The notes under the pieces are model-generated. The model did not search any database. It saw only the letters and a list, made by a program, of their open reading frames with translations, and was not told the origin of the DNA. DNA of 64,000 nucleotides from Plumapathes pennacea (taxonomy: Eukaryota; Cnidaria; Anthozoa; Antipatharia; Myriopathidae): contig OZ038462.1 of NCBI GenBank assembly GCA_964036295.1, forward strand, positions 40,405,680 to 40,469,679, written 5' to 3'. A program made the position numbers and the translations under genes. Position 1 is the first letter of the stretch, and every line of letters begins with the position of its first letter. Positions 4,061 to 52,459 of the stretch are shown here, one piece after another.

Positions 4061-4200
4061 TATGCTTTCTGTTCTTGTACGAGAGTTGGGGGTGTTCTGT
4101 GTCGTTCATCTTTGTTGATAGTGTTAGCTGACCCTAACTCGGTCTAACCTTAATCGAGTGTCGCTAACCCTAACCTAAACAACTGAAAAACAATAAGACG

Positions 4201-5110
4201 GGCGCTAGAAATAGGAGCAAATAATTGCCTAACACTTCACTCTTTTCAAACAAAAGGGCATAAAATTATGCGTAGTTTTCTTGCTATATCTCGTCAACGG
4301 CTGACGACAAATAAGGCAAATGCAGTATAAAAAAGTCTCGTTATAGTACAAGGAAGGTTTCCTGAAATTTTCGGCCGTTTTTAGCAAAAAGCAAGGGCTA
4401 TAGCTTTACCATTTTTTCAAAAATCGGCCAATTTTGGCCTAATCTCAGAATTGCATGAAACTTCCAGAAAATGTTCTTGGAATATAGCGAGATTATAATA
4501 TGAAATCTGTGATATTCAAAGAGCAGGCGCGAGTACTACGAGCAAATAATCGCCTCACACCTCTCCCTTTTCAAGCAAAAGTGCGCAAAATTATGCATAG
4601 TTTCATGCTATATCTCGTCAACGGCTGAAGAAAAATAAGACATGTATTTAAAAAGTCTCGTTATAGTCCCAGGAAGGTTTCCTGAAAGTTTTAAGAGTTC
4701 TAAAAATTTTACTCTAAATCGGCCATTTTTGGCCTAATCTCAGAATCGCACGAAACTTTCAGGAAATGTTCCTGGGAGTATAGAGAAGGTTTTGATACGA
4801 AGTTTGTGATATTCAAAGAGCAGGCGCGAGTAATACGAGCAAATAATCGCCTAACACCTCTCCCTTTTCAAACAAAAGTGCGCAAAATTATGCGTAGTTT
4901 TCTTGCTATATCTCGTCAAGAGCTGAAGAAAAAATAAGACAAACTTATTGCAAAAGGTCTCGATATAGTGCCAGGAAAGTTCCCTGAAAGTTTCAAGAGT
5001 GTTAAAAATTGCTCAAAATCGGCCGTTTTTGGCCTAATCGGCTCAGAATCGCATGAAACTTCCAGAAAATGGAATAGGTATATACTTGAATGGAATAGGT
5101 ATATAGCTTC
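4201..5110. repeat. ~300-bp tandem repeat, three copies (satellite-like)
   Basis: Three head-to-tail copies begin at about 4201, 4526 and 4823. Each contains, in order: GGCGCGAGTA-TACGAGCAAAT, a CTAACACCTCTCCC block, GCTATATCTCGTCAA, AAGTCTCGTTATAGT, CAGGAAGGTTTCCTGAAA, then a CAGAATCGCATGAAACTTCC block. Divergence between copies is moderate. The array ends about 80 bp from the stop codon of the Xlox/Cdx-type gene, so it lies directly beyond that gene's 3' end. Confidence 0.9.
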
Positions 5111-5191: not shown

Positions 5192-7280
5192 CTAATCTTC
5201 CAGTTCATACAACCTTCGTATATCGACTGGATTTGTCTTAAAGCTCTCAAACGAGCTTGTTTCGCTCTTTTTCATCTTCATGCGGCGGTTTTGGAACCAA
5301 ATCTTAATGTGCTTTTCGGAGAGACTTAGCGACCTGGCCAGTTCAGACCTGCGCTTGCGCGTGATGTAGTGACTGAACAGAAACTCCTTTTCCAGTTCCA
5401 CTTGCTGTGTTGTCGTGTACGCCGTGCGTGCTCTTGTGCGAACCACTGCTGACCTCCAGGACTCTCGTCCGCGTCCCTGCACTAAGCTCTGATCAGCTGG
5501 AAAACAACAACGACAACTTTATTCAAAGTTTGATGACAGACTTGCGCCAAGATGACAAACGCTGTTACAAACTTAGTTATAAATGCACCCGGCGTTACCA
5601 ATCACATCGCGCATACTATCTGTACCTTATAAAGCACGCTACAAAATGCTACACTATTTTAACGCGGTCAGTTTTCTCCCAACATTAACCCGTTTTCTCC
5701 CAAGCTCAAAACACATATTCTCCCAACCTTTTAAGACCAGCTTTCATGTGAGCAAGGTATCAAAAGTTCTCTTTACAATATGACATGTTTCTGGAGAACA
5801 TTGAAGTTACCCTAAACGCACTCCCTTAGACAAACAAAAACAGCTATGATCTATAAACCGTCCAAGTTTACCTGTACTCCGGACAAAATGACTGCTATAA
5901 TTGATGGCAGCACTGAATAGGAAAGAGGAGGTTGCTGCACCACGGAGGTTTTGGGCACACGAGTGTACCTTTCAGAAACGTTTTGGACAAACTAGAAGCC
6001 GGGCCCCAAGATGGTGCAGCCAATATTCTTGACGGGGTCAGAAAAAGTCCACTTTTTTAAGCCAACGGCAGCATAACCCTGACTTGCGAAACTACATTCT
6101 GACTGATTCAACCTCTCAAGAGTCCTTCCAGGCCGTGTCCTTCAAGTTCACCCAGGAATCTTAGTTAGACCTTTCACTGTCATATTTCTCTTCTCAAATT
6201 AGACTTTTAAAACAATAATGAACTCTACTCAACAAGAACGTTCCACTTATATAAAAATGTACTCGTTGAGAGCTTTTATCTGGGCGTTCACACCTTTAGG
6301 TTTCATCAGGCAGCTCTGGAGTTGGTAGTCAGTACTGCTATTGGAATGTACTAGTTGCCGGAGAGCTTTCATTTGAGTGGCCACACCTTTAGGTTTCATT
6401 TAACAGTTCAGGAGGTGGAAGTGAATACTTCTATTAGAATGAACTCATCAAGAGCTTTCACTTTAGTGGTCACACCTTTAGGAGCTTTCAGTCGAGTGGT
6501 TAAACTTTAGTTAACAGTTCTGGAGCTAGAATTCATTTTGTCGGTTGAGTCCAAGTGCGGAAAACCGCGTAGATATACAAAAACAAATTAAACAAACGAA
6601 CGATTTCCACAGTAAGAAGACAATGGTTATTCAATACAAAACAGGGTACACTTTTAAGGTGTGCCAAACTTTGGCCTGGTGTTACATGAGCTCAAACTGT
6701 CACAAACATTACTTTTGGTTTCCACTAGGAAGGGCCGAAAGTCCAACTTCCCTCTCCAAAAGTGAATGCTCTAAACGTCAAAGCGTTAATGAAGTATTTT
6801 TTGTTGATATTTTGTTGCGAACCATGTACAAAACACGCTGCGTAGAAAAAATCATATTAGCATCTTATGTTCTCCCTTTTCTGCTAAAGATTGCTGTTGA
6901 ACATTCCGACAATATGCTCATATACACAAGAGAGTTTAAAAGTTCTCCATACCTAATCCTGTCCCGTTGCAGGATATTTGGCCAACGTCGGGTGCCTCAG
7001 CTGCTGCAGAACTCGACCCGTCGCTGGAATAATGACGCAGAGGGCTAGAGAAACCCAAGTGCAGCGAACCAGCAAATGGATCCGGTGAGATAGGAGGGAT
7101 CCAACCCAGAGGATCGGGCGGACAAGTGGGACGGATTTTGGTTAAGGGGGAACTTGTCCCCAAACAACCAATACGAGGCCACTCTGCTTCAATGGCATGT
7201 CCATCACGAGTGTCTGAGAGACCAGTTTGGAGGAACTGCGGGTAACGTGTATTGACGTCAGTGTAGTTGAATTTCTCCAT
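5192..7280 (-). CDS. Xlox/Cdx-type ParaHox homeobox transcription factor
   Basis: This gene encodes a sequence-specific nuclear transcription factor. The model has two exons: 7280-6953 (109 codons plus 1 nt) and 5481-5192, giving 205 aa. The donor reads ATTAG|GTATGG and the acceptor AGCTTAG|TGCAGG, and both are phase 1. ATG 7280 is the first in-frame Met after a TAA three codons upstream. The homeodomain spans residues 124-183. It has ELEKEFLF in helix 1, HYITRKRR before helix 2, and [13 protein letters not shown] in recognition helix 3. His44, Ile45, Gln50 and Asn51 are present; His44 is a hallmark of the Xlox/Pdx class, while HYITRKR recalls Cdx. Residue 56 is Met, where Xlox proteins have Trp. 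The N-terminal part is Ser/Pro/Gly-rich and lacks a clear YPWM hexapeptide. Gsx lies upstream on the same strand, as expected for a ParaHox cluster. A Hox gene of another class is the alternative and is less likely. Confidence 0.88.
6225..6540. repeat. Imperfect ~100-bp tandem repeat in Xlox/Cdx intron
   Basis: About three to four degenerate units recur inside the single intron of the Xlox/Cdx gene. Each contains GAATG-ACTCGTTGAGAGCTTTCA-like text, a GTGGTCACACCTTTAGG block and AACAGTTCTGGAGCT. A further lone copy lies at about 33172-33260, so the family is dispersed in the genome. Confidence 0.8.
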
Positions 7281-7726
7281 CACTTGTTATTGCTCTGCTA
7301 ATGTCTTGTCCGTGCGTAGAGGTATCAACAAGTTGACTTCGAGGCGCTCAGGTGTTTTTACTTTTTTTAGTTATGCTTTCCGAGAGTGTGACTGAGTAAT
7401 TCCTGCTGCAGGAATTACAAAATAGACAAGCGCTGTAAATTCACCGTGGAAAAACACTTTGGGTCCTACGGAATCTGACTAATTCTGGGACTAAGTCACC
7501 TGTATGTTTTTCATATCTCTACACCTAGAATATTACCCAGATCATGTTGATGCGCCAACTGTCACCAGGATATCGGAGATTACAGAAGACCAAATAAACA
7601 TTGGCGTTTCAAGTCACCACTGCATTCAAACTAGAAGTTCTAGTATGTCAATGCAAGTCCCATAATTATATTAATGCGCTTGGGGAACACAATATCCTGA
7701 ACAGAATTTGGTTTCGAATTCAAGTG

Positions 7727-7752
7727 TTTTTTTTTTTTTTTTTTTTTTTTTT
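7727..7752. repeat. Poly-T run
   Basis: Twenty-six consecutive T. It could be the tail of a minus-strand retroposed sequence, but no body can be recognised. Confidence 0.9.
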
Positions 7753-8395
7753 CTTTTGTTGTTGTAATAAATAGATTTCCTTTGACGCACATCGCAGCTC
7801 CCCACACCTTCTGGTTCTAGCTATTTATTTAGTTCGTATATCGGACACGCAATGCGAATAACTACAGAATAACAAACTCGTAAATCTTACCTCTTGACAG
7901 GTAACGAGTATCTGTATACTCGTACGGCGCACAAAGGTTTGAATTCTGCGGGCTGCAACCGTTCATATTACCCATTTCAATCTGTAAATTTAAGAATACA
8001 GAATGTTAATAATACAGAACATACACAGACTGCGGTATACAGTCAAATAAGAAACAAAACTATCTAATTCTGAAGCCAGCTGTCGGTTAAAATTACAAAG
8101 CTGGCTGGCTAACATAACTCACTCAAATGCAAAATATGTTCGGGTTGTGATGAGTTTCGGTTCATGGGCGGTGATGGCGGCAAAATTAACGATAATTGCT
8201 TTTCATTTAGAAGGGAGGTACTCCTAAAAACCTATCTATTACAAACGCATTCCACAGGAGATTTCCCAGCAGTAGTCATAAACTTAAAAAGCCAACAGGG
8301 AAGTGGAATACGAATGCTATATATGTAACTAGTTGAGCGCTTGCTACCTCTAAACAGTCACAAGGAAACATTTCTTCCCCTGTCACCAACCAGTC

Positions 8396-8421
8396 AGCCA
8401 AGCCAAGCCAAGCCAAGCCAA
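8396..8421. repeat. (AGCCA)n short tandem repeat
   Basis: About five perfect AGCCA units. Confidence 0.9.
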
Positions 8422-10736
8422 GTCCAGCTCCAAGAACTCACAAAAGCGGCAAGTTAAAAAAAAGCGACGCCCATTACACATGCGTCAAAAGGGTCGGGCA
8501 AAATCCAAAAATCACTCCAATGACGGCATCACACACCTAGACATCAAAATAACCGACTGAAAATAAACAAATGGTTTGTGCAGTGGAGGCCGAATATTAA
8601 GCAGGAATTTATGGAGGCTTTCGGGTACCGTGAACGTTCATAAATATTAAGCTAGAAGAGTGAGCTTCCCGATAAATTTTTCATGGTGAACAGCATAAGT
8701 GAAGTCTCGATGTTTAACTACAGATCTTTTTTGTGCAAGAAGATAGAACAGGCCTGTATGAAAAGGAGGCTACATGGTCGAATAATGGCCCCCTCTATCT
8801 TGCGAAGGATCAGCAGCGGGGCGCAAATCGGTGCAACTATCTCCTTTCGACAGTCAACTATACAGCCATTAGAAGTACAGTACGGCAGGCATGGCGTACA
8901 TGGCAGGCAGTAGTATCTTGCTTAGTAGTGGGTTCCTCACTTTTTATCTTGTTCAAGCAGCAGATGCGGAGAATAAGCCATAATTACATAAGTATTAAGT
9001 GCTTAAGAAGTTCCTGTTCATACCAAACTGTGTTAACTATCATAACAAGCGAATCAACTGGGCGAGTCTTAAAAAAGCTGACTAATTACCAGAACTTTAC
9101 TGCAGATTTAGTTGAATTACATAAAGATAAGAAAGGTTCGGATTGAGAAAAGAGGTAGAAAGAGAATGTATTACATCGGTTCTACATGTGATAGGCTTGA
9201 ACAAACATGTTCCCTTTTGCGCAAAAATAGAACAATGGCGCGGTTTAACCAGATGATAAGGCCTTTAAACTTCAGATGTATACAGTTGTCCTTGTGTTAA
9301 TGTCCATTGATAAACTGATATTTTTATTGTACTGCGCTATAGTCTTGTCGTCGTCTGCAGAACATGAACCCTCGACCGGAAGCCATGTGGATAGAATTAG
9401 CAAGGAAGATTAATGTGCAGTCGAACGCAGCCACGCCCTTCATAAATCGTCATTCCCGTAAATTTCTTTCCATTCCTGTACTTTCACTCTCGAAGAGGTG
9501 ATCTCTTTTTTTTTTTTTTTTGCCAAACTTCTTTTAAAAAAATGATTTAAGTGTCTTGATTTTCAGACGCCAAGCAGCATTCAAAGAGAATTCCTTCTAC
9601 CGTGTAGACGAACAGGATGGAGCTTGACATTGGATACACAGCTCCTTCCGTTTCTTAATAGGACCTAAGGAGACGCATTAGTATATCAAAGAGTTCTAAA
9701 ATGCTTGAGGCGATTTACTATCAAGTGATTGAAAAACATTTGTAGCTATAAACAGTACATTAACAACAGATTTTCCTTTTCTCGTGGTGTTTCTTCTCTG
9801 CAAATACCATGCAGTATTCACAAATGGCTCCATGATTACAAAAATACGCAAAATACTGTCTCGAAGTTTGCTTGAAAAGAAGAACTGAATTCTAGCACTG
9901 ATGAAGAAATCGCTGTTAGTCCCAAACTGAAACATGCTGTCAATTGTCACGAATCTTGGGACTGAGATAATTCGGCTTCAATCATGTTTCTGCAATATCC
10001 CTTCAACATCATTATCCTTTCTTGTGGGCTTTAGGGCGATAATAGGGGCTTTCAGTATCGGCACTGAGGCAGTTGATCGTGCAATATACCCGAGCAAGAA
10101 ACTTTTAACCGAATAGATAGTCATCGAAGTTACAGATAACGAATAAATACCGATGGAGAGAATGGGGTACACTCTCTGATTGGACCGAATTCTTCCTTGT
10201 CGTGTTCTTGCTGTACAGTAGCGGATAAATTTTTCAGTCATATTTTAGCTAATAATCTTCATTTAAAGAGATAGAGAGGGGCCCAATCTAACTCGCTGTT
10301 GATAAAATCTGGGTTAATGTCGAGTAAATGTTGATAAATCTGAGCAAATGTTATTTGCGTGAGGTTTTTCAGGTCTCATTCCAAAACATGACCGAAGACT
10401 TGAAAGTATAAGATGCCTTTACTCCATCGCCGAATGAACTAAGGGTAAGACTGAGACAGCTATAGTGGGATCCCGTAGTACACGCATGTCCAATGTACCC
10501 AATCTCAGTCCGATTTCAGTTTGACCGTCGGTCCGTCCGGTCACCATTAAAATGAGGGTTCTCAATGAGCACATTCTCAGAACAGTCATTTGAATAGTGT
10601 AGTGCTGAACGAAGTTCGTATTTTTGGTATTTGCAAGTAACTTTCACCCCCCTCCCCCTCCCAACTTCAATTTGCTTCTTTATTCTCTCTTCAGAGATAA
10701 ATCACACAATGTTGAGAACTTGGCCTCTGATACCTT

Positions 10737-10854
10737 ACTTACAAGAAAGCTGGTTAAATAATCAGTCCTTACTACATCATTCGTATATTTTCTTCTTAAA
10801 AAGTTGGGGGAATCTGCCATTTGAGCTTGAGAGTACAACATAGCAGTGAAAGGT
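10737..10854. repeat. Dispersed repeat, copy A
   Basis: Shares CGTATATTTTCTTCTTAAA, an AAAGCTGGTTAAA-like block and TTTGAGCTTGAGAG with a second copy at about 49430-49555 in the same orientation. The copies are diverged and no termini were identified. Confidence 0.65.
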
Positions 10855-11308
10855 CGATAAAAATTCTAAACTCAAATCAGGGTGACTTGGCAAAACCATC
10901 ATTTGATTAATAACAGAAGCCAGTCACACAGAAGGGAGCTTGGGTACAACCATTCTTCTTAATGCTACTAAGTAAAGCAGCACATGGGATTCCCTGGCAA
11001 ATCGGCCCACGCGCTTTGCTATTTAATTCTAGTTTATAACATTTTTAAAGTCCAAAGCTGCGATCTCTTTTGGTCTTTTCTTGTTTTCGTATGTTTTTGG
11101 ATTTCGCACGTGCACACGTGTCGGCTTGAGATCAAACAGGTGAACTTAGCAGGTAGTTACATGTGCTTGCTAAACGCTTTAACACGCTTTCAACTGGTTG
11201 CGAACACAATGGCTACATGTAACTGTAATGTTTGTCTTTTTCAGCCGTTTTTCACGTTCACGTTTGAACGAGTTTCATTGAAGTTCCTAAGTGTAACGTG
11301 GGTAAATA

Positions 11309-11338
11309 TAGTATTGTATTGTATTGTATTGTATTGTA
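11309..11338. repeat. (GTATT)n microsatellite
   Basis: Five to six units of GTATT. Confidence 0.9.
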
Positions 11339-13998
11339 ACGTGCTTGTTATCAGGTATTTTTGAAATGTGTTAAATGTTTGAGAAGTCACAGTGTGGCTC
11401 TGAGAGAAATCTTGTTGGCTTTGAAATGAATAAAGATCAAACTGAACCCACTTCAGAAAGAGAACGAAGAAGCCTCGAACAGGAGGCAGTGCGAGCTTTG
11501 AATCACAACACAACAAAACTACAAGAACGGTAACAAAAGACCATCAGCCGGAGATTGACCAAACTTAAGTAAACGATTGAACGTGGCATAAAACAAAGTG
11601 TGCTGCGATGGCCATACCTGCCCACTCTACTTGTCTAATAAATTAAAAAATACGTGTTCATATGTACATGAGAATTGAACACACTTTCTGCACGTGTATG
11701 ATTTGAACATTGGGGACTTAGCAGGTCCACACGATCTTTGACTTGTTTTGCTTTGTGTTTCGGGTATGCAGATCCCTTTGGATGTTTATTATCGCCTTGA
11801 AAGCACATTACAAAGTGAGTACAACACGTGCGATCGATGGAGATCGCGGCGAGCGGGTGCCAGAGTGCTGTTTGTTATGTACTTCAACTTGTACTAACTA
11901 TACCTGTTTAAATAACCGGCCGTGGAAAACACTTCTAAAACGGACTTTCTCCACCAGAAATAAAATCCATACCCGGAGGAAGTTTATGTCAAAATGTGCT
12001 GTATGTCCAAGCAACGACTAAATCAGTGCAGGTTCTGGGATAAGAAACCTATAGTAACGTGAAAGCTATGAGAGATATTCATCATTACAAACCGGCTCTT
12101 GTTGGTCTTTTGTATAAAGTTTAACAGGCCTCTTGTTCAAAGGCATATCTCCAGACTCTTTGTGCTATCTATTAATAAAGCAACATTAACAACTTTATTG
12201 AACTTACAGCCAGAGATCGAGAATGTTGACAAAGCGCGGTGATCAATTCAAATACCCCCAGAAATCTTGCCACAATCCCTACAGAAACATGCATGTGTCA
12301 AGTTGCTAATCACATGACTTTTTCCCTGTCTGACACCTCGTGTGCAAAGGGTTATTTTTATAGACCTATCCTCCGTAAATAAATATCAAGAAATATCAAG
12401 AGGAAACTACCAGGCCATGTGTCATGCACTATAGTGTAAAATAAATCAGAAGGAAACCAGTTCCTCTAAGAGCACCATAGGCAATAAGAACATCATCTAC
12501 TAACGACACACATCATGCTACTGTATTTCTATTTCCGGTCTACTGTTCTCTCTATCTTCATTGTACGACTCTCGAAATTTCATTCCTTCAAAAGTTTTGT
12601 TACAACACACAGTACGCGTCCAGTAACTATCAAACTCTGTGTGTTGCTAATTTTGGGTAGTTGTTATCAATCTGCGTTTGTTTTAGTCCCTTCATTATTT
12701 CTAAGGTCAGTATTCGGATATTCTAAGAAATATGGAGCAGTCGTGTAAGCACGAGGACGGAAGAGGACGACGGCAACCTCGGCCGTGAAACAATAAAACT
12801 AATTGCAGAAGACAAAAGGCACACGTGAATAACAAAAATCTGAATTTGACCTGTTCTTGGGGTCGTGCGCTCTCGCGTGTGCGAATTCAAATGCTTCTTT
12901 TTAACGAGATTGACAGAACGTGGACGACATTTCGAGAACTTAGTAAGAGACGATGAACACAATAGAACCTCGGCAGAAACGGAACAAATTGAGCAACCTA
13001 AGAATAGACGATGTTACAAAGACATAAAGAAAATGGAGCCGAGAAATTTTTCTTGGTTCCTTAAGCTCCTGTGCCGTCCTAGTTTGCTTAAACTCCCGAT
13101 TGATCTCGTTTCTTCTTGCATGTATATCTCTGTTTCATATAAGGAACTCACAGCATATTGCACTATTTACAGTGTGAAAAAAGGAGAGTGCTAATCAACC
13201 TTCTAATGATTTGATCCGTTTTCTCTGTTTCGTACAGCCTCGTCGAACGTAAAGTAAGCGTAAGCAAATTGTCAATTACTCCACCCAGTTTTGCAACAAA
13301 AGGCTTACTTGAAAACCCAACGTAATCAATTCAATCACGCTAGACTTTGAACACCACCATTAGAAGCTATTCACACTTCACCGCGGGGAGTCGTAATGGA
13401 AGTCACAACTTTGAGTTTATAAACAACACGTTTAAAACAATAAAGGGTTTTTCCATGTTTTAAAATAAAGGCGTTCTTGGCCGGTTAACCAGTTAATCTT
13501 CAATCGATACTGTTCAATGATCTTCAGTGGTCACCTTTATATATATTCAGATGTGAAGCCCCAAATTTCTTCTTGCGCAATAATATAACTCTACTCACGC
13601 ACAGTGAAACACGAGTAGTTTAAATTTTTCAAGTCATCAATATAATGTGTTTCTATACACCGTGAAACAGGAAACAAAACATGGAAAGATCCAAGCTCGT
13701 CGTCATATTACCACCATCTTTGATCGTTCTATTGTGTATTTACTTCTATAAAGTCTTGGTATATTCATTCAGTGCATCTGAACAAGAATTCAGTCACAAG
13801 GGTGTTTGGGCATAAAGCCGACATAATCCACTCAAATGTAGCTTCAGTGCCGGCCTCTAATACTGCAACATACAGCTATTAGTGAAACTTACTGATCCCA
13901 TGTAAGTAAATAAACAGGATTTACCAGAGTGTGAAATTTCATGACGTGTACGGAAAAAATATTCTGATTCGCTCTCAACAGGCTTTCTGCACTTCGGC

Positions 13999-14713
13999 AA
14001 AAAAATAAAAAATAAAAAAAATAAATTAAAGTAAAGTAAAATAAAATAAAATAAAATAAAATAAAATAAAATAAAATAAAATAAAATAAAATAAAATAAA
14101 ATAAAATAAAATAAAATAAAATAAAATAAAATAAAATAAAATAAAATAAAATAAAATAAAATAAAATAAAATAAAATAAAATAAAATAAAATAAAATAAA
14201 ATAAAATAAAATAAAATAAAATAAAATAAAATAAAATAAAATAAAATAAAATAAAATAAAATAAAATAAAATAAAATAAAATAAAATAAAATAAAATAAA
14301 ATAAAATAAAATAAAATAAAATAAAATAAAATAAAATAAAATAAAATAAAATAAAATAAAATAAAATAAAATAAAATAAAATAAAATAAAATAAAATAAA
14401 ATAAAATAAAATAAAATAAAATAAAATAAAATAAAATAAAATAAAATAAAATAAAATAAAATAAAATAAAATAAAATAAAATAAAATAAAATAAAATAAA
14501 ATAAAATAAAATAAAATAAAATAAAATAAAATAAAATAAAATAAAATAAAATAAAATAAAATAAAATAAAATAAAATAAAATAAAATAAAATAAAATAAA
14601 ATAAAATAAAATAAAATAAAATAAAATAAAATAAAATAAAATAAAATAAAATAAAATAAAATGAAATAAAACAAAACAAAACAAAATAAAATAAAATAAA
14701 ATAAAATAAAATA
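13999..14713. repeat. Giant (AAAAT)n pentanucleotide array
   Basis: This is an almost perfect AAAAT/ATTTT array. It is uninterrupted from about 14036 to 14662, roughly 125 units. A short AAAAC patch lies near 14670-14685 and edge units are degenerate. Minus-strand frames made of repeating FILFY residues are purely a product of the repeat. The array sits between the two ParaHox genes. Confidence 0.98.
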
Positions 14714-17190
14714 ACCCAGATATATTTGTCATGAGACAACCATATTTATCACTAGATGCAGCTATCAAGATTCGGGTCTAAGATTTTTTCACTTGCCTGA
14801 AAATAGAATAGGAGTATGTATTGTGTATCTTTATACAGATTATCATGTATACTACAGTGCACCAGATGAAACATTATCTTTTATATACAGCATTCATTTC
14901 TTTATTGCCAGCAGGAATCCTCCACGTTTCCTAGCTACAAGAGCGACCATAGAAAGTTAGTGAACAAAATTGACCTGATAGCAACGCAAATGGCTGGGCG
15001 GCTATAAATAAATTACACCAGTGCTAATTAAATTTGTTCTACCAAGATTTGAATGTGAACCAAACGTGAAGTGAAATTACCTTTTGTGGGAAATAAACTA
15101 TGTTTCATTGCTACATCATTTTGCTAGAATCGAATTAGCCTCCAGCTGAAAATAGAAAGCCATCTGCGTGACTCGGACATAAAACATGGAAAGGGAACTA
15201 TATCATCAAGGACGTTCTAAATCGATATCGGTTTAAGAACGTTGATTCGAACACCCTGCCCAGAATAAGCTGAGAGACTGAAAATGTTCTGTGCTAAAGA
15301 TCTGTTGTTGTTACACCGAAACGTACTAAAAAGGCTAGAACAGCCCGCGCTTGGGCAAATAGAAAGCGTGCCAAACACGCGTTACTTAGGGTGTGTGTGC
15401 GCTGCCAAGTGGCACACGCGCGTTCTAAACGAACTTTGAAAAGCAGAGCACGAGTTACATCTTGTTCTACTTCTATTTAGGCGCTCACTTGACAGAGCTG
15501 TTGAATAGAAACATATGCGATCTGTGGCAACAAAGTCTTTACGACCTGTAAACGGCAGGCTTGCGGCGGCAGGTTGAAACTAGGATTAAGAGACTGCCGA
15601 ACAATTTAAGATACTTTCTCGTTTTCATTTATTGAACTGTTTTCACTGAACTTAATTAATTTTATGACTTAATTACTTCACACCGGCAGATTTTGGAAAG
15701 GAAATGAATCTGTTGTTTATTTCGGTTACTCTGATAGTTTGAAAAATATATAGAGAGCTGTCGCGAACGTTTGTTTTTCAGCTTTGGCAATAAAACATTC
15801 CACCTGCAAAATTACACCTGGTGCTTTTGACGATTATTTGAAGTTAAACCTTAGCGTACTCTTTCGTTTTTGGAATCCAGACTGAATTATATTTAAGAAG
15901 CATGCATTTAATGCATATACGATTCAGAACACAAAGCGCAATTTCAATCATTGAAATGTTTTGGTCCTTTATTTTCTTGCTTAATTAAATAAGTCCTTCA
16001 AAATGCAGCCAAAAGAGCGGAATTAGGCAAACTTTGTGAAACACGCAGCTTCCTTTGACCAACAAAAAGTTGCAGTTTGCTTTTCGGAAACAGTGAACAG
16101 TAACTTCCTCGGCAGGAATAGGAAATGTTACTTATAAGTGCTCTGAACAAACTTAAGGTCGTTTGCTAACCCGCTTCTTGTAAAAGAAAAAAAAAGAAAG
16201 AAAAGAAAGCAGTGATAATTGAGCAAAAGCTGTGACAAATTCGCATCTGTTCTGAAGTCTCCACTTTAAAATTGTCGTTATTTTTTATACGGTCGTATGA
16301 TGGGCGTTTCATCATGAACACAAACGAAGGTTGAAATCTTTAAGGCAAGTAACATTGGTATACCCAATCAGTTGTTTAGTTTTATCGTTCATGTACGCGT
16401 TCAATTTCTCACAAGAAAAAAAAAAGAGAACAGCGATTACTATAACAGGGAATGGGCCTTATACAACAACATTTCTTTGTTATACAGATGAGGATGCTTC
16501 TTTGTTCGAAGCACACCTGCTTCGCATAAAAAAAACGACGCATAAAAGGGTTTTGTGACGAACTTCAGCTATTTGCTGAACAGATTAAAGATGCTAAAAT
16601 TCGCACATTGTGTGAGAAAAGTAAATGTGAACGAGTATACTCCCAATAAAATATTCGTATTTTTTTTTTCGGTTTTATTCCATGTTATGTTTTTGGGTAT
16701 GTTATGTGTCTGTATACCTCGTGCTGTTGTCTGAAAAATGTGCCTACAATCTGAGCTCAGAAGAAAAGGGTTTTATAGGTAGTCTCAATTTGATTTCAAA
16801 GAAACAATTTAAAAGTTTTAAAATGTAAAAACGCTGTTTGTGTCCGCCATCTTTTCCCGTTCATCGAGTGTGGTTTGCATGTGTGACCCGCCAGAGAGCA
16901 GATAGTGAAGTCAAACGATCGCAACTCTTCTTTCATCTGATGTCAAAATACACAAAACTAAACACCTCAATAAACAGAAAAACAAACTAACGAACAAACA
17001 AAAAGACCAAAGTAATGGCTTGGAACAGTGATGTCTAGTGGGAAATTCATACCCAGACAGCCGTTTCAATTATATTTCTTCTTACTTATATTTGACAAAA
17101 TTTAACTTTTCTCTCGTAAATGGTCCATGGTTACCAAGGAAACGTACTTGTCTCGCACACACAGAATTGTATTAATATTAATAACTTTAT
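14714..17190. other. Inter-ParaHox sequence, no gene recognised
   Basis: AT-rich sequence without a recognisable exon. TTAATTAATTTTATGACTTAATTA-like words (homeodomain-type TAAT cores) cluster near 15648-15680, but such words are common in AT-rich DNA. Confidence 0.4.
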
Positions 17191-17519
17191 AATGGTGATG
17201 AGGAGTCAATGAGGCTGATGATAATGATGGTGACGATATTGTGACAGTGATGGTGATAATGACGATGATGATGATGATGATGATGATGACAGGGATGTTC
17301 ATGTTCATGGTGACTATGATACTGATGATGATGGCAATGATGATGATGGTGATGGTGGTGGTGATAGTGGTGATGGTAATGATTATGATTATGATTATGA
17401 TAATGGCGATGATGGTGATGGTGATGGTGATGGTGATGATGATGATGATGATGATAGTGGTGGTGGTGGTGATGATGGTGGTGATGGTGATGATGATGAT
17501 GATGGTGATAATGGTGGTC
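17191..17519. repeat. Imperfect GAT/GGT trinucleotide array
   Basis: About 330 bp of ATGATG, GGTGAT and GGTGGT units. Poly-Met/Val frames across it are artefacts. Confidence 0.95.
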
Positions 17520-20500
17520 GAAGAACGGGAAACGTTAGTGTAAAGTTAGCGTGAAGCTTACAGTTCTCCTTGTAACTTTTAATGTTGTAGTTTCCTTTCG
17601 TAACTTCTCATTGGCGGACCGAGTAACGGCTGCCAGTGGTTTGTCGTGTTGTCATTACAGATTCAGGCGACTGCAACTTTCACGATGAAAGTGATTTTTC
17701 GCTTTTTGAGCATTGTGTGGTTAGAGACGAGCTTGCACTGTATGGTAAATTTATGCTACAGTCTTCCTCATTTAGCCTCGACAGTGCTACCCACATACTT
17801 CTTAGATCTGCTTTATTATATTGATGGCCGTGAAAACCGGTTAAAAAAGTGAAAATACAAGTATAATATAGTTAATGCATCTTCAGAGCACACATATTTT
17901 TATTTTACTACGATATTAATCACAGATTTATCATATTTTTCTAAGTCTTCCAACATACTGGATATCTCTAAACTTTAACATGTTTATAAAAGAAAGATGG
18001 AGATATCTGCGATCATCACACCCAACCAAGATATTTACAAAACAGTAAACCGTCATCAATCACCAAAGAAGTACAGCTTCTATAATAACATTTCTTACTT
18101 AGAACTTTTTTCTTCTTCCTTCTTGGGGCAAAAGCGAGAACGAATGCCGATAACAAAGGTCTCTTCTTCTAAATTTTAGGCAAAAGACAATAAATTTTTT
18201 TGCCCTACGGCGAGCCGGTTTTTTTCTCTTCCTTGCAAACGGAAATCCCAAATGTCTCAATTATCGTTACCTCGTCCCTATTCTCGATTTATATTTGAAG
18301 TCAAGACCCATTTCAAGTCTGGAGCACAAACAAAAAAGCGCAAATTAATTTCCTCAAATGACCAAATTAAATGTACTTTGATGGTATAAATGGCCCTCGA
18401 AGATGCAAATCCAATTCTTTTTGTCCGAAACAAAAGCTCGTTTTCAAAACTAACAGAAAAAAAGGCATTGAATCCTTCCTGATGTGTTACACTCCAAGAT
18501 AGCCGACTAAGGTAGGTCGACTTTACAAAAGATTGTTTGAAGATGCCTTTTTTTCATTTCCGCTAAAAGTATCAATCCTTGATTATGCTCTTTGCTATTT
18601 CCAAAAGCCGCTTTAAGTTAAAATCACTTTGTTTACTGATGGAGGATGAGTTTTCTCTCCGGAAATTAATCACTTCGCATTTATTGCTCGTTGTTTGTGA
18701 ATTAGTCTTCAAATCACCTGCTTCTCTTTCCATTTCACTGCTATCACGTATTCATTTATTTCTTATGAAGTTTCAGGTAGAAAATTTGACATCACAAGCA
18801 TTCTTCATGCTGAAGCTGTCGTTAAATGGCAACCCTTTCGTTTCACATAACGCTGGTTCGTGTATTAAACCACTTATCACCTCAGATTGCGTAATAAACT
18901 TGGCAGCAAAGACACAATTTAAAAATATTCCGGTCCAAAATAATGTGCTTCAGTTGAAACAGTAAGAAAAATAAAAACATTCTGGCTAAAGTCCAAGTAA
19001 GCGACTGCAAAACCCTTGCTAATTCGTATTTGTGAATTTCAACTTATAATGGCCAAACGCGCAAAAAAAATATGTGTGTGCATGAAGCAAGGCAACACTA
19101 TAAAGTAACGATATAATTGTATTATGTCTTATGCTTTGCACACCAAAACCTTGTCTCTCTGCGGCTCTGAATTTGAAAATCGACTCTTTCCAATTAACTA
19201 TGCCACAAGAACTAAATTTTATATATAATTATCAATTCTCGGTTTTTCTACGTAATAAAATTTTAACTTGGGTTTTCAAGATTATTAAGGTAATTTTACT
19301 AAAACGATAGAACGCCAATTTATTTAACTAAAACGCGGCCAAACAGCAAACTAAGGAAAATCGCAGGTATACAGGGCAGCTGCAGTTGTATAATTTGTCG
19401 TTAAGTAATACGCAATTTCAAAATATGTTTCCTGAAATTAAACTACAATAAGTCATGACATAGCATTTAATTTTTGTGTCAAAATCAAATTGGCACGCGT
19501 ACAGTTTGAAAAAATATTACCGACAATGACATGCACGAGTTAATGATACCTTTTCGTGTCGACATCTTGTCTTACGCCGGTATACTTTCTAATTAATACG
19601 TTACGGCCTGCCTACAAATTCAAACAATCTCCGTGAATTTAGAAAAAGGCGTAAATATTAGATTTTAATGTTCGTTCGCCAGAAAAAGAACCGAAATATT
19701 CGCAGCGATGTTGTTGGTTTTAAATAGTTTTCTATTTTTCAGATCAACACAAATATAAGGTCAGAACCGCCTTACCAGCAAGTGGTTCACAAAGAAGTCG
19801 ATCAGAGTGTATAGCCAGTGAATTGTCGGCAGATTTGGAAAAGATAATAGCACATTTAACCGATTCTATACACATCAAAAGGCTTCTTTCTTTATGCACT
19901 ACCATATATCACCAGGACAGGTGTAAATTAAAACGGTAATCGAATTTGTATTCTACACAAAAAACGGCAGAGTGGCAACAACGCCAAGCCATATCAACTA
20001 CTTGAGGTTTTCTGCGCCACTAAATTGCGTACTTACAGATTTGAAATTTGAGTAGAAGCAAGTCTACAAGTCTACAAGTTATTGACCTGCTTTATTCGCT
20101 TTATCTTCTGAGCATTTCTAATAAACAATGAAAAATAAGGTTTATACTCTAAACAATCGCAAAAGGATCGCGAAGAGTTCCAATTAAGGGCGAGATATCA
20201 TTATTTTTATGTGTTCAATCGCACGCGCGAATGGGCGAGGGAATTAGTTACAGAAAAATATTCAAGGCTGTCCCATATTGAAAGCTTTCCTCGCTCAGTC
20301 AACACTTTTCACAAACATATCAACCACCCTTCTTCGAAAGAAAACATGCTGCATAATTATCAAATACCATTCAACTTGGACACACAGCTGAAAGTGGTAT
20401 CTTTGGTTCTGCATATACCGACAACTTTCGTTTTCTTTGCAGAAACGAAAGTTTCATCTGAGTGCCGTTTCATAGCGTTGCTATACAGCCATTTCAAATC

Positions 20501-22591
20501 CGAAAATCAGTACGACCGCTCATTTTTTGTTCTTTGCGAAGTGTTCTAATATCGGTAGAATCGCAAAATCTTTGTAGTGAAGAAGAAAAATAAACTTCAA
20601 TACAAAGAAAACTAACGTTCGATAATTCAATATAACGCATTTGGTAATCAGAGGCACTGGCAACGAGCCATGCAGTGTGCACACTGTTAGTCAAATTATT
20701 TTTTCGTTGTCTCGCCAACGATACAGAATTGAACAGTATAGAGTCACTTCGGTGTCTTTAAACTCGGAGCAGATAGTACGTGAGCGAGGAAAACACAGCG
20801 ACAATATCAGTCCAAATAGGGCAAGGCCAGAGTCATAATTTGTCTGTGTCGACCACAAGCCAATGGAAAATGTGTTTTGAATAGCACTGTTCAGCGTTCA
20901 CTGATCAATTAAGCCACTTACTGCTTCACACAAAAGCTATTAGTGGCCCACGTATCAACCGAGGCGGATACAAGCCCGCAAAAATGATGAGACTTCCCGC
21001 TTGTTTCGACACTGAAGAGACGATACTTACACAATTAATGCATGCAAGGCCAGAAATAGCAGGTCTTCATCTTCAGGATTTACCACGTATAATCTTCAAA
21101 AGCGCTGAAAAGCGCACCGTTAAGCGATCTCGCAAGCCGCTAATAAGTAAATTTTGACGGAAACATGTAAAGTGTGCTTCTATTAACAAAAAGTCCACAA
21201 CAAAAACGAAAACGGCCGACGCAAAGGTTTACCCGAAAGCTGCCGGCATTTGAACAGTTATTATGAAGCCACATGGCTCTATGAATTACCATAATACAGA
21301 GCCGATTAGAAAGAATTAAATTTGCTGTAAACAGTTGTTGCGAAGCAGCGCCAGAATCCGGAATTCAGAATGGACACGCTTACGGCTCCTAACTCCAAAT
21401 TTGTGTTCACTTGCCGGCTTCTGTTGGCCATTGCAAACTCTGCTTTAGAACTGAGATTAATTCCTTAAGCTCTTTAAGTTTTCTCTCTATAATTAGGGCA
21501 GCGGACGAGGAACTAAAGGACATAGACAGATTGCCCACTTCAAAGTTCAAAGCATCATTTCATTTTGGGTGCTCATAGAACGCTATCTATAATAATGATA
21601 ATAATAAGAAAAGAGTACGACAGCTCTTCCAAACGAAAGCCAGCGCATTTTGGCATGTAGGAAATGCTCTCATTGGCTCCAAAAGTTCAACTGTCAACGC
21701 TTCAATAAAGGAACCCGTTCGTCAACAATATTTGTGGTTCGTCTAATTTGTATTTAAATGCAAAAAGAAAGAACGCATGTATCCCATGAATTTCCATTTA
21801 GGCCAGTGCCAATTGTTGGGGAGTCGATACTGATGAATTAGGAGGGGCTAAGATTTTGTATTGGTTTATGAAAGTGATACACGCAAAGAGATAAGGAGAG
21901 ATGATAAAATCCAAAATCGAGAAGGGTAGTTGTGGTTTCTTTTCTCGTGAATGAATTCTCGAACTTTGGAAACCGCGAAAACAAAGACACACAGGCAAAT
22001 GAAGGAGACAGCAAAACGGAAAATCATTGTCGTTTTTCCATAACAGGTGCATCTATTCATGGGTGCCGTTTGAATAAGGACTAATCGCATTTTCAGAGTT
22101 AGTTTTCAGCCCCTGTAAAGTTTTAATGACGAGTTTTCAAACCAAATAATAACCAGATAACGGTATAGCTGGGTATAGGGTAGTATTTCTGGACCTAAAG
22201 CACGAGCGCAAAAGTGCTAAAATTAGCAAGCGCCACATTGGCTCGAGGTATACAATTTGTGCGGACTTCTAGACAATTTTATCACCTTGGGAATAGTGAA
22301 CCAAATGATTATTTTTCGCTATCAGGCTCAGAGAAAAGGCGAAAGACAGTAAACACTGACTTTTCCGGTTACAGTGTCTTGGTTTTGCGGAACAGAAGCA
22401 AACTGAAGATACAAGCTAAAGATATATATTAGAAAAAAAAATCATTGAACACAACAAGAACCGGCGTAGAAAGAAAAAAAGAACCAAAACAATGCTATGA
22501 AAGAGTATCAAAGTAGGACAAAGCAAGCGAGAGCAAAGTATTATAAACAGAAACTCTAGACGGACGCTGACATTTGGAATAAAAGTCGGCT
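17520..22591. other. Inter-ParaHox sequence 3' of Gsx, no gene recognised
   Basis: About 5 kb, AT-rich. No frame on either strand carries a recognisable domain, and no repeat family seen elsewhere in the window was noticed here. Confidence 0.4.
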
Positions 22592-22597
22592 TTTATT
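22592..22597 (-). terminator. Polyadenylation signal candidate of Gsx
   Basis: AATAAA on the minus strand, about 370 nt after the Gsx stop codon at 22965. This is a plausible 3' UTR length. Confidence 0.5.
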
Positions 22598-22964
22598 GAC
22601 CGCAAGCCAAAGGCGTTGCATGATGATCTATAATATACACTTTCTATAACAATATATTCACGCACAGAGGAACATATGGCTCTCAAAAACACTTTGTACA
22701 ACCTCAATGACGAAAAAAAATTATAAGTCACACGACCGCAAATGTGACGTACGATTTTGCGTTTGACAAGGGCGTATTAATCGACAAACAGAAGTCTTGG
22801 CGCAGAAACTCTCCTTGTCCCCTCGGTCTATCAATTAACTAAATGTGACGACAAATTCACCGCCTATAATTTCGTTCATTCTGCCTTCGCCAGAGTATAT
22901 AAAACTAGTGTACATTACGCGGTGAACTTTACAATTTCTATGTACAATGTTCGCGGCTGGTTAT

Positions 22965-23787
22965 TCAGCTTGAAGGAGAGAGCGGGCTGCGTGGAGAATC
23001 GCTGTTCTGATGTTGGGCGGCTTTCTTGTCTTTCTTCCACTTCACTCGCCGGTTCTGAAACCAGATTTTCACTTGTTTCTCAGACAAATCAAGAAGAGCA
23101 GCAATCTGTATCCGGCGTAAGCGAGAGAGGTATCTGTTCTGGCTGAATTCCTTCTCGAGCTCCAATAACTGCATGCTAGTGTACGCAGTCCTGATGCGCT
23201 TGGATCGCGAGTTGCCTCGGTTGCTGTTGTTTGATTCTTGGGCCGCTACTAAAAACGGAAAACAGAAACAAGAATGAGATCCCAAATGATCAAATACAAT
23301 ATCAAGATGTCAAGAAAAATTGCTGGTGGGTAAAAACAGGCCGCTCAATACACCTGCCACAAGCGAATTCGTGTTTGCATGTAGTTAAATTGTGTCCTTT
23401 TAAAAAGTATCAAATTTGCGACTGAAAAAAACATATATATATATATACAGAAAAAAAAAGAAGATAATTACCGTAAGAAGCAAGATGTAGCCTTTCCTCT
23501 TCACTGACCGGGTAATGTGGTGGGAGGTGGGAGTGTTCTTTCGATAGTTCCCTCGCGGAATAAAAGCCCGTTGGCGTCCCGGCGCTACGAATATGCATAA
23601 ATGGGTGAACTGAAGGAGCGGAGGGAATGCAAAGCTGACACAGTCCGCTCGGATCGGGAGTGCTAGGAGTCCAACAACATGAACACGGAACCGGTGTCTC
23701 GAAGCTACGCCTTGCCTCGGCGTTTGTGGTCAAGGTTTTCGCCTTGCTGTTCTGTATAAGTGACTCGATGTAAAACGAGGAGGACAT
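22965..23787 (-). CDS. Gsx: Gsx ParaHox homeobox transcription factor (anthox2/cnox-2 class)
   Basis: This gene encodes a nuclear homeodomain transcription factor; Gsx genes pattern nervous tissue in many animals. Two exons, 23787-23472 and 23248-22965, give 199 aa. The donor TACG|GTAATT and acceptor TTTTTAG|TAGCGG are both phase 1. The start is fixed by the conserved Gsx N-terminal motif, here [11 protein letters not shown]; a GTG-initiated extension upstream is ignored. The homeodomain is at residues 121-180. It has [18 protein letters not shown] in helix 1, [13 protein letters not shown] around helix 2, and [17 protein letters not shown] in helix 3. Gln44, Gln50 and Asn51 are present. NRYLSRLRR together with NRRVK is the Gsx signature. 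The short C-terminus is Ser/Pro-rich and ends 19 residues after the homeodomain. A TATA box lies 67 bp upstream of the ATG. Confidence 0.95.
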
Positions 23788-33659: not shown

Positions 33660-36600
33660 TTACTTGGTCGGAATTTGGCTCAGCGAGTCGCGCGAGCGGT
33701 TTTTCAGGTGCGTCTCGATAACCTCGGCGAACTCTGTGCGTCCCAACAGCTGATACGCAAGAGGCGCGAGGCTCAGGATGGTGTTGTGGAATTTTTCGTG
33801 TCCAGAGCAGAACAGGTCCAGACCCAACTCCAACCCCATGCCATAGTCGCACTCGTCGTTGGCAAACTGCACTAAAGTGATGATTTCTTGCAGGTCTTCC
33901 GAGGCCTGCTCTTTTATTTTCTCGTTTTTACCGTCACTTATGTTCTTGAGCATTCGCTTCAGTTCGCCTGGAGGAGGAGAGAAGAAAGTACTAAAGATAC
34001 TACTCACATGTCTCCTCTGTGGGTCCTGTTTTTCTCTTCGGTTTTTAGCTTATCCATGCGCTATCAGCCATATATCCCTCCTCTAATTTTGGGGAGGCAA
34101 ATAGCAAGAAACACACGCTTTTTAACCCAAACGGACCCAATGTTTGCAAAACTAGTTTTATTTTTCGGACTTGCGACAGGTTGCCAAACGGATTCGCAAG
34201 TCAGCTCTAAGTCCACAAAAGCAACCTTCATAACAACCGCTGGTCAGCTGGGTTCGACTTGGGTTGCGTTGACTTGCGTCCAAATTTGAGCTCAGTCAAA
34301 GACATAATTGATATAGCTTTCTCCTTTTGTCTGTTTTTATTCCTTTCTGTCATTTTGGGGTGGTTCCAGGCCATTTTGAACAATTTTTCGCGTGGTCCAC
34401 TACCAAACAAAAAAATCGCTCAAAATCGGCCAAAGTGACACACAAAGGATAGAGTAGACACACAAAGGAGCAAGGTAAATCAGATATTTCTTTTATTTTC
34501 AAAATTCAACCCATTGGGTTGCCTGTGTCCGGACTTGACTCGTGTTTATATTGCATGGGAATCGCTAGGAATTCGTAACGATCCAGAATCCTATCGTGTT
34601 AGAACATATACCGGTACAGTGTGTGATCGTGTTTCAACAGTAACTTACCATCAGATACTGTTAATGGCCTGTATCCCACTTCATTGGCATCAACAGGAAC
34701 TACAATGCCAGCCTTGTGGAAGGTTTTGGCCACCATTTTCTTGTTCCTGGCTTTAATTGCAGGGGTAACAGACTCGAGAGGATACCTCAGCTCCTGTGCC
34801 TTGGATTTCAGAGAGGACTGTAGTTTTTTCAGTGCACTTCCTTTGGATTTGTCCTTTGTCTTCTTTATTGCTTCAGTCAAACATGCGCTAAGTAAGTGTA
34901 AATCAGAACCATGATTAACGTAAATGTTATATTATCTTTCACAAGGTAGTTTATACACTCTCATCCTTGGAGAAGGATGAGAGTGTATAAGGGGCAGATC
35001 ATGGGGCGTGGACAAAACATTTCAAAAAACAACAACAACAACAAAAAATACATCTGCCACTTTTCCCTTTCCCTACTTGAACACAATGTAAGATTTTTTA
35101 TAGCCTTTCACAGACCTGTCCCTAAAATGTGCAGCTTTTATATGTGGTCTCATAAGTCTATGGCAAAAAAGTTACCCTGTCAGAGACAAAATTTCAAACT
35201 ATTTTAGACTAGAAGCTTCAAACCACACCCACCCTTTGTGGTGGTACATGCCTACAATATGTATGAGAGTACCACCACCCCCCCCCCCCCCCCCCCCCCC
35301 CCTCCCAGGATGCAAATGCAATAAATTATCTAATCGCTAATCAGTAAGATGAATAATTAAGTGACACATTTGGGCAGAAATTGAACACAAAGTTGACTCC
35401 TGGTGAGGGAGGGAGGGTCAAATTATGCAAATGCTAAACTGCTAGAAATCACAAAGTAGAAAAATATGAAACTGTGTGATATGCAATGCGAGTAAATAAC
35501 TAAAGTAACTTGATTAGGTAATCAAAATAACAAATAATTATTATTTAACTGATAATTATCAGCCAATAGCAATATACTAAGTACTTCTTACTTGACAGCA
35601 GCAAAGAGGTTCTGTCCAAGCACTGTGAACTCACAACCAACATTGGCCTTGTTGGAACAAAGAAACACTGGTTCAGCCTTTGGATCATCTCTAAAGTGAA
35701 CATAAAAGAAAAACATTCAGGTTACTGCCATCAGCTACTAGGAACAAGTCAAGACATGCCCAAGATGGGTGGGAGGGAGTACCATAAATTATATTCCACC
35801 ATAAATGGCATGATTTTGAAGTGTTTTGCAGTGAAACCTCGATATAACGAACCTCGGTATAACAAAATCCCTGATATAACAAAATCCCTGATATAACAAA
35901 CTATATTTGTCAGCCCCTTACAGCCCAGTTACAGTAAAATGTATGTGAACAGAACCTCTCTATAATGAAACCCTGTTATAATGAACACAATTTCTTTCTG
36001 ATACACAGTTAGAGGCAAATGAGGTCCAAAAATGGTATGGGTAAAACTGTTAAATCTTCTTTATTTTTGGCTGAGAGTCCGGGTTTTGAGAACCATTTGG
36101 CACCACCCCCACCCCACTGTACCCATGGGCCAGCTTAGATTTGAGTCTGCAGGGCCTACACCACCATTCTGTGTGTCAGTTCTTGGTGTTGGTTAATTAT
36201 TAAATAACATCAGAGATGCTAAACATTGGCCGTTTTTCATTTAAAATAACATGCACAGAATTAGTGACAAATGGAGTGTGAACAAATATGTTGGTTGTGA
36301 TCATCTGGGTTAGAGTAGTCTGAGAAAGACTGTTGTTGGTGATTGACGTTTCGACCACATGAGAAGAAGTCACCTTCAGAATCATGTGAAGAGCCATCTG
36401 ACACAAGCTATTCACTTTGAAGCCTCTCACCTCTGGACTCTTGAAGATGATTTCTGGCAGACTGAGGCAGTCAAAATGTCAGTCACCAAAAACAGTCTTC
36501 CTGGAGACTAATCGAACCTCAATGATCAAAACCAAGAATACACAAACAACCAGGGAGATTTACTGTGTAAGCCAAACTAACCTGTAATATCCCACATGAA

Positions 36601-37760
36601 AGCCCTCTTTATCATCTCCCCTAATGACCGTGATAAACTCTGGAGGATCATAAAAGTATCGCCAGTGCAGGTGATATGAGGTTATACATGACTCATCCAC
36701 ACCAACAAAGCGCCCACCCAGGAAGTCATACAGCCCAACAAGTTCAAATCCAAGAACATCCTTCAAAGACTCTGAAAAAAATGATTAAAGACCATCACTA
36801 AATCTGAACTTTGGCCATTACTCCTTGAGCACTGTCCCCATTCCATACTAAAGTATCTTAGGTAATGGTTTACACGACGCAAAAGATACCTTGAGGGTTG
36901 TAGGAGTCCAAGTCCTTGCAAAAATCCCAGAAATCAAGGAAGTCCTGTGGCATCTCACACTTGAACTTGTTCCTCAAGATCTCTCTGATCTCGTCTGTAA
37001 AATGTAATGCAATCAATCTTTGTAACCTACCACCTAACCCTCTGCTCTAGGGGTGGGGGAGGCTGACTGGGGGCTGGGGACTCCCCCGGGGGGGGGGGGG
37101 GGGGGGGGAACTCCCATATATTTCCTATATAGGGACGTTCCGCCCGATAGGGTATCATTTTCAGGGTCTTCTGTGATTTTTTCCACGCTTGGACAGTCCT
37201 GAATAGGGTGCCGCTCTTTTACAGTTAGAAGAGAAATTCAAACATTCTGTTAGATAATTGCGTTCTCTGCTGTCATTAAAAGTTACGCTATCATTCCTAT
37301 GCTAGTATGGTAATCGTAAACTGAACGATCGGTTTACAGGGTATTAAATATGAAAAAAGGCAGTCGGGAGTTTGAGGCATCACCGGCACCCTCTACCCGG
37401 GCCTCTACCTAAACTTCACTCGAGCTGTGCTTCCCTTCCTCCAGCGGGTTTCCCAAACATCAATATATATATATTGATAGTTCTAAAGCTACAATTCAAA
37501 CCCGCCCAAACGGCTCGAGGCTCCTGGTATCCTCTTATTTACAGACCCAATGTTTTGCTGGGAAAAGGAAAATTTCAATCACTAAAATGAAGTCACTACA
37601 GGTTTTACAGACTTTAAAAGATGGGTCCAGATTATTGGTGTGTATCAGCCTTTTACAGACTCGCAAACGTATTTGCTCGTTCATAACCTGAACTGAGTGA
37701 TGGCGTACAGCTCGTTGTCTTCTGTTTCTTCGCTGGAGGCTCTCGTCCGTCCGCCATCAT
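33660..37760 (-). CDS. HPF1: HPF1, histone PARylation factor 1
   Basis: HPF1 is a nuclear cofactor that binds PARP1/2 and completes their active site, switching ADP-ribosylation to serine. Six exons were assembled: 37760-37688, 36994-36890, 36771-36582, 35690-35592, 34887-34649 and 33967-33660, for 337 aa (human 346). All introns are GT-AG, with phases 1,1,2,2,1. Key stretches are [15 protein letters not shown] (exon 2), [14 protein letters not shown] and [12 protein letters not shown] (exon 3), [11 protein letters not shown] (exon 4), and the C-terminal [19 protein letters not shown] (exon 6). Asp273-Glu274 in NDE correspond to the human catalytic Asp283/Glu284 pair. The N-terminus is short and basic (PPAKKQK, a possible nuclear signal). 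Two tandem ATGs start exon 1; the second (37757, MADGRE) sits in the better context. The gene is transcribed head to head with POMP. Confidence 0.95.
34951..34990. repeat. Perfect 18-bp inverted repeat in HPF1 intron 4
   Basis: The arms TTATACACTCTCATCCTT and its exact complement are separated by only 4 nt, so an RNA would fold into a tight hairpin. It lies in the intron between HPF1 exons 4 and 5. No known element is recognised. Confidence 0.9.
35278..35302. repeat. Poly-C run
   Basis: Twenty-five consecutive C after a CCA-rich lead, in HPF1 intron 4. Its length is likely unreliable in assembly. Confidence 0.9.
35829..35990 (+). mobile_element. Tigger/pogo-like terminus, truncated
   Basis: Begins CAGTGAAACCTCGATATAACGAAC, a typical Tigger/pogo end, and repeats GATATAACAAA and CTATAATGAAACC words. 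No matching right end is present, so this looks like a solo or broken terminus. It lies in HPF1 intron 3. Confidence 0.6.
36285..36440. repeat. Partial copy of the 59.6-kb hairpin repeat
   Basis: TGGTTGTGATCATCTGGGTTAGAGTAGTCTGAGAAAGACTGTTGTTG-like text matches one arm of the inverted repeat at 59601-59729 and then diverges. It lies in HPF1 intron 3. Confidence 0.7.
37088..37108. repeat. Poly-G run
   Basis: Twenty-one consecutive G in HPF1 intron 1. Confidence 0.9.
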
Positions 37761-52178: not shown

Positions 52179-52459
52179 ATGCACTTACTGTTCTCGAAGT
52201 TATTGGAGGTTTTCTTCCAAATAACTTAAAGGTCGTTTAAGGCACTGTTATTCGAGTGGGGCTCCTGTGTCCTGCTTCGGAGGATTATTAACCCAGGATA
52301 AAATCCCACGCGGAAATAATATATCAACGATTACCGACGAAGGAGAAAGACCAAGGGATCTGTCCGCTAGCAAGAATTGATATCCTTTTGAAACCGCAGG
52401 CAATTGTGAACTTCTAAGGTCTGGCTCTGACTAATTGAAAATACTACAAAGGCTGGATT

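Follow-up and report, generated by a model that had tools for sequence, protein, structure and literature searches.

A linked Gsx and Xlox/Cdx-like gene pair in Plumapathes pennacea supports an anthozoan ParaHox cluster

Do two homeobox genes that lie close together in the genome of the antipatharian Plumapathes pennacea form a ParaHox cluster by descent, and is the partner of Gsx in this pair an Xlox gene, a Cdx gene or a displaced Hox gene? The genes are found in a 64-kb stretch of DNA (hereafter the window; positions 40405680-40469679 of contig OZ038462.1, here called C1), and C1, with 42.4 Mb, makes up 14.6% of a 290-Mb genome in 24 contigs. Our results suggest that the locus is very probably an anthozoan two-gene ParaHox cluster, consisting of Gsx and of the gene known from other anthozoans as Xlox/Cdx (HOX2B, NVHD065), next to the genes for histone PARylation factor 1 (HPF1) and the proteasome maturation protein POMP (also UMP1). 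The arrangement is not new. It has been published for Nematostella, corals and other anemones, and since the same pair and neighbours are already described there, the present locus adds a further case to what is known.

Gene models and identity of the two genes

Both genes could be modelled in full by in-silico splicing, each with a single GT..AG intron that precedes the homeodomain and leaves it whole, and with the reading frame kept at the join. Gsx lies on the minus strand at 23787-23472 (exon 1) and 23248-22965 (exon 2), with a 223-bp intron and a product of 199 residues; its coding parts of 316 and 284 nt add up to 200 codons, the last base being 22965. Exon 2 holds the stop codon and the whole homeodomain, whose 60 residues (23025-23204) are extrapolated at the ends from a 57-residue Pfam match at 23031-23201. 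The Xlox/Cdx-like gene, also on the minus strand, spans 7280-6953 and 5496-5192, with a 1,456-bp intron and a product of 210 residues. Its exon 1 begins with the start codon at 7280-7278 and comprises 109 codons plus one base, directly followed by the GT donor; exon 2, entered through the acceptor ..TTTTCCAG, contains the stop codon and the entire homeodomain (5261-5440), with histidine at position 44. Each protein has one Pfam homeodomain (PF00046) above the curated cut-off, with E-values of 3.1e-22 for Gsx and 2.4e-20 for its partner. The genes stand head to tail, about 15,680 bp apart (15,684 bp from 22965). Thus, intact homeodomains, complete gene models, a shared strand and a spacing of 15.7 kb, all proposed in an earlier sequence-only reading, are borne out, and the motifs which that reading quoted for both genes are present in the spliced proteins.

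The space between the two genes contains an AAAAT array (14009-14714; 706 bp, 141 copies, 98% matches) and a TGA trinucleotide array (17216-17513; about 100 copies, 66% matches). The sole intergenic frame submitted to Pfam, 20885-21157, gave no match. Just downstream of the Xlox/Cdx-like gene, positions 4195-5071 form a tandem-like repeat, offset by about 324 bp and 81-82% identical.

To place the homeodomains, we compared them pairwise and in a tree of 42 sequences: 27 references, the two from the window and 13 of the 39 distinct homeodomains of the same genome. The 39 stem from 53 loci and passed a filter that required a motif and 22 or more identities with a reference, within a genome search in which 150 of 224 candidates were scored and 150 matches listed; the 13 tree members were picked by hand for being more Hox-like, with Msx added. 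Seven of the 27 references were confirmed against PDB chains, over those residues that the chains show, and PDX1 is the single bilaterian Xlox sequence among the 27.

On its sequence, the first gene can be firmly assigned to Gsx, as had been called before. Its homeodomain shares 48 of 60 residues with ind and 46 with GSX1 and GSX2, followed by HOXA4 with 44, and the Gsx clade receives a Shimodaira-Hasegawa-like approximate likelihood ratio (SH-aLRT) of 97.9 and an ultrafast bootstrap (UFBoot) of 98. Gsx proteins have a conserved N-terminal start of the MSxSFxIxSLI type; such a start is present here, as read directly from the spliced protein. The best natural single-homeodomain match in the PDB is GSX2 (8eml, 89.8 bits), then Scr (82.3) and PDX1 (80.1); an engineered tandem engrailed (6m3d) totals 98 bits from two domains of 51.2 and 52.9 bits.

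For the second gene, Xlox is the best fit, and the locus in which it stands is the one known in anthozoans as Xlox/Cdx. Its homeodomain shares 41 of 60 residues with PDX1, 39 with HOXA5, 38 with HOXA3 and 32 with CDX2, and at the 15 sites where it agrees with one of PDX1 and CDX2 but not with the other, 12 side with PDX1 and three with CDX2. The Xlox-type His44 noted earlier is indeed there, and among the 27 references PDX1 is its only other carrier. A Cdx-type homeodomain, with Q44 and RRAKERK, is not matched, the gene having H44 and RRMKMKK instead. In the PDB, PDX1 (2h1k) is the best natural match with 75.3 bits, above abd-A (70.9), HoxA9 (70.6), CDX1 (59.7) and CDX2 (59.6), while 6m3d totals 81.7 bits from domains of 43.5 and 43.1 bits. 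The best tree joins the gene to PDX1 (SH-aLRT 92.3, UFBoot 87). In the genome, this homeodomain has 81 matches, the best of which besides the gene itself is only 64% identical; therefore, no second Xlox/Cdx copy was found.

Several observations weigh against these placements. For Gsx, the approximately unbiased (AU) test rejects neither a Hox1 (p = 0.25) nor a Hox3 (0.14) position. For its partner, the same test rejects no alternative at all: Cdx (0.55), Xlox plus Cdx (0.48), central Hox (0.44), posterior Hox (0.30), a HoxF-like gene of the same genome, L032 (0.29), Hox1 (0.24) and Hox3 (0.115), the last of which alone is excluded, by resampled estimated log-likelihoods (RELL) and expected likelihood weights (c-ELW) only. 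Such non-rejection is expected, because a homeodomain has only 60 residues. In addition, residue 56 of the Xlox/Cdx-like homeodomain is methionine, as in HOXA9, where PDX1 has tryptophan. Xlox proteins carry a hexapeptide of the FPWM type upstream of the homeodomain; by eye, exon 1 has no such hexapeptide, its lone tryptophan standing in DPLGWIPP, which is why we classify the gene as anthozoan Xlox/Cdx and not as Xlox proper. The phylogenetic check proposed in the sequence-only reading is thus answered in part: the best tree points to Xlox, but the homeodomain on its own excludes neither Cdx nor Hox, and the Xlox/Cdx assignment draws on identity, tree, His44 and locus together.

Is the cnidarian gene then a one-to-one Xlox, rather than an unsplit Xlox/Cdx precursor? 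On sequence grounds this is a tentative reading that falls somewhat short of probable: His44, the identities to PDX1 over CDX2 and the discriminating residues lean towards it, and Met56 and the missing hexapeptide lean against it. If it were true, the cnidarian-bilaterian ancestor would have had a three-gene ParaHox cluster, and Cdx would have been lost in this lineage. The gene may be Xlox, Cdx or their common precursor, and the ancestral ParaHox genes may have numbered two or three. A grouping of the cnidarian HD065 with Xlox has also been published with weak support (bootstrap 44; Steinworth et al., PMC9825252).

Comparison with other anthozoans

In Nematostella, the pair consists of anthox2 (Gsx) and NVHD065 (XLOX/CDX), reported by 2007 with reference to a 2006 report (Ryan et al., PMC1779807). 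According to that account, the two genes share the orientation seen here and are 12,977 nt apart; each has two exons, with the homeodomain wholly in exon 2, and His44 is present. The Gsx intron is short in both species (176 bp in Nematostella), whereas that of NVHD065 measures 10,529 nt, against 1,456 bp in P. pennacea. NVHD065 shares 39 of 60 residues with amphioxus Xlox and 30 with amphioxus Cdx, so that, by the published counts, its homeodomain profile is nearly the same as that of the gene described here. The flanking genes differ: those reported in Nematostella are similar to a DNA polymerase and to a subunit of RNA polymerase II (PMC1779807), in contrast to HPF1 and POMP here.

These latter neighbours recall corals. 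The coral 'H2' ParaHox locus comprises HOX2A (cnox-2/Gsx) and the Xlox-like HOX2B, and HPF1 (as CD027) and POMP are described as conserved single-copy genes flanking the coral pair, Nematostella being excepted (Ying et al. 2018, PMC6214176). Our locus likewise combines both homeobox genes with HPF1 and POMP in their immediate vicinity, a comparison that concerns the gene set only. Among anemones, Gsx is reported as linked to Xlox/Cdx in Edwardsia and the species compared with it (PMC12053456) and in Exaiptasia (PMC9444052); the Exaiptasia cluster is given once as Xlox plus Gsx and once as Gsx plus two Cdx (PMC9444052), whereas one such gene is found here. The ParaHox pair is described as lying apart from the Hox cluster in both Exaiptasia (PMC9444052) and Nematostella (PMC10719294).

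The coral resemblance also touches on the robust corals, of which histidine biosynthesis is given as a trait (PMC6214176). A search of the P. pennacea genome for HisG gave no match, versus matches in 13 of 14 control genomes; this speaks only weakly against a robust coral, because exon splitting could hide the gene. GFP (PF01353) likewise had no match in the genome, nor in any of the 14 controls, which makes that null uninformative.

Genome context and alternative explanations

The pair sits on a different contig from the Hox-like and Msx genes that we found. Of the 39-homeodomain set, C3 holds (at 13.1-25.2 Mb) the Mox-, Gbx-, Mnx-, Evx- and Hox1-like members together with three more that are Hox-like, and C12 holds Msx and one further Hox-like gene, all labels being taken from the tree above and from pairwise identities. 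A similar layout is reported for Nematostella, where ParaHox (chromosome 10) and SuperHox occupy different chromosomes (PMC10719294). Beyond 36.5 Mb, C1 carries only the ParaHox pair among the 150 homeodomain matches listed.

Elsewhere on C1, at 36.22-36.44 Mb, at least 15 partial homeodomains occur within about 0.2 Mb among the matches listed. They cover positions 1-46 of the profile, which would fit an intron at that point, and one has a stop inside. The group has the appearance of a tandem homeobox gene array, perhaps of the PRD class.

The bilaterian counterpart of the locus is the human GSX1-PDX1-CDX2 cluster on 13q12, whose neighbours we take to be POMP, MTIF3, PAN3, RPL21 and URAD, with URAD adjoining CDX2. 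As in the human cluster, Gsx and an Xlox-type gene are linked here, and four of the five neighbours match on the same contig: POMP within the window, MTIF3 at 1.06 Mb from the pair, RPL21 (a doubtful match) at 3.70 Mb and PAN3 at 3.90 Mb. The chance that at least four of five genes fall on C1 is 0.002 (at least three of four without RPL21, 0.011), figures to be read with the reservation that the genes were chosen by us and not at random. Unlike in human, no separate Cdx homeodomain is seen in the 64-kb window. Against the shared synteny, it has to be counted that URAD lies off C1, on C8, in three copies, and that the genome's sole RPL21 match contains a TAA, so that it may represent a pseudogene or a match extended beyond its exon. 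A ParaHox-neighbour synteny analysis of this kind was reportedly made for Nematostella by Hui et al. in 2008 (cited in PMC2723086).

The reading as an anthozoan ParaHox cluster is supported because HPF1 and POMP adjoin the pair, the Hox-like genes lie elsewhere and four of the five human neighbours, RPL21 doubtfully, match on C1. In short, one gene with an Xlox-like homeodomain stands next to Gsx, with HPF1 and POMP near. The claim that the window repeats the Nematostella arrangement as a ParaHox cluster is supported by the firm Gsx, His44, the layout (PMC1779807) and the human ParaHox neighbours matched on C1.

The alternative that deserves most attention is that the gene at 5.2 kb is a posterior or central Hox gene that moved next to Gsx, so that the pair would not be ParaHox by descent. 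The posterior, central and HoxF-like placements left standing by the AU test would allow this, the MKMKK ending is common to HOXA9, and ParaHox genes have been discussed as possibly detached Hox genes (PMC1779807). However, the best tree, pairwise identity, the PDB ranking and His44 all point to Xlox, the same pair is known from corals and anemones (PMC6214176, PMC1779807, PMC10719294, PMC9444052, PMC12053456), and four of the five human neighbours match on C1, away from the Hox-like genes found on C3 and C12. We therefore regard a translocated Hox gene as improbable.

Two further explanations would remove the cluster altogether, and we give both next to no weight. If one or both genes were decayed copies, damage to the coding sequence would be looked for, but the frames are open, the splice sites are canonical and the homeodomains are intact, including W48, F49, N51 and R53. 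If the linkage were an assembly artefact joining two unlinked genes, it would have to have arisen without an N-filled join, since the window contains no N and lies inside a 42.4-Mb contig; moreover, the same genes are reported together with HPF1 and POMP in independent anthozoan assemblies (PMC6214176).

For the ParaHox cluster, the linkage would most simply be ancestral, dating from before the cnidarian-bilaterian split. It is tempting to speculate that a shared regulatory landscape caused it to be retained, which is conjecture. The two proteins would be nuclear DNA-binding transcription factors acting via their homeodomains. In Nematostella, Gsx transcripts are reported in scattered oral ectodermal cells resembling neural precursors, and NVHD065 is expressed in stripes that help to form the ventral mesenteries (PMC1779807). 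By analogy, Gsx of P. pennacea may act in scattered, neural-precursor-like cells of the oral ectoderm and its partner in such mesentery-forming stripes.

The locus adds one gap-free, chromosome-scale instance of this anthozoan block. It is in line with the published opinion that, before cnidarians and bilaterians diverged, the ParaHox genes were already linked to each other and apart from the Hox genes. HPF1 and POMP beside the pair, with MTIF3, PAN3 and probably RPL21 within 4 Mb, provide a simple anchor for finding the locus in other cnidarians.

Neighbouring genes and other features of the window

HPF1 lies on the minus strand at 33720-36748 and is recognized by four PF10228 profile matches (33720-33965, 34641-34898, 35555-35704 and 36581-36748), of which that at 35555-35704 runs over a TAA, probably past the exon end. 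The best PDB chain for its last exon is 6tvh, 'Predicted protein', with 134.7 bits. POMP follows on the plus strand at 39651-40585, in three exon pieces (39651-39761, 40172-40264 and 40517-40585, the last with the stop codon) that match PF05348 with an E-value of 8.3e-25 when joined; the N-terminal exon or exons were not located. A genome search gave no further match to HPF1 or POMP outside the window.

To the left of the pair, exon pieces at 361-2030 on the plus strand belong to an SLC5-type sodium-coupled transporter closest to SMCT1 (joined pieces against PDB 7sl9, E 1.6e-15; no Pfam match). Over the 64-kb window, Rfam at the gathering threshold and ARAGORN each returned 0 matches. Two pieces on the minus strand, 55099-55749 and 56357-56692, gave no Pfam match and read, as an impression, like parts of a non-LTR (long terminal repeat) reverse transcriptase.

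An uninterrupted minus-strand frame at 51258-52184 encodes a rhodopsin-family G protein-coupled receptor of 308 residues (PF00001, E 2.4e-21). The window also has two pairs of dispersed repeats, each about 330 bp long, one inverted (38599-38933 and 62821-62480, 83% identical) and the other at 52458-52778 and 53739-54045 (85% identical).

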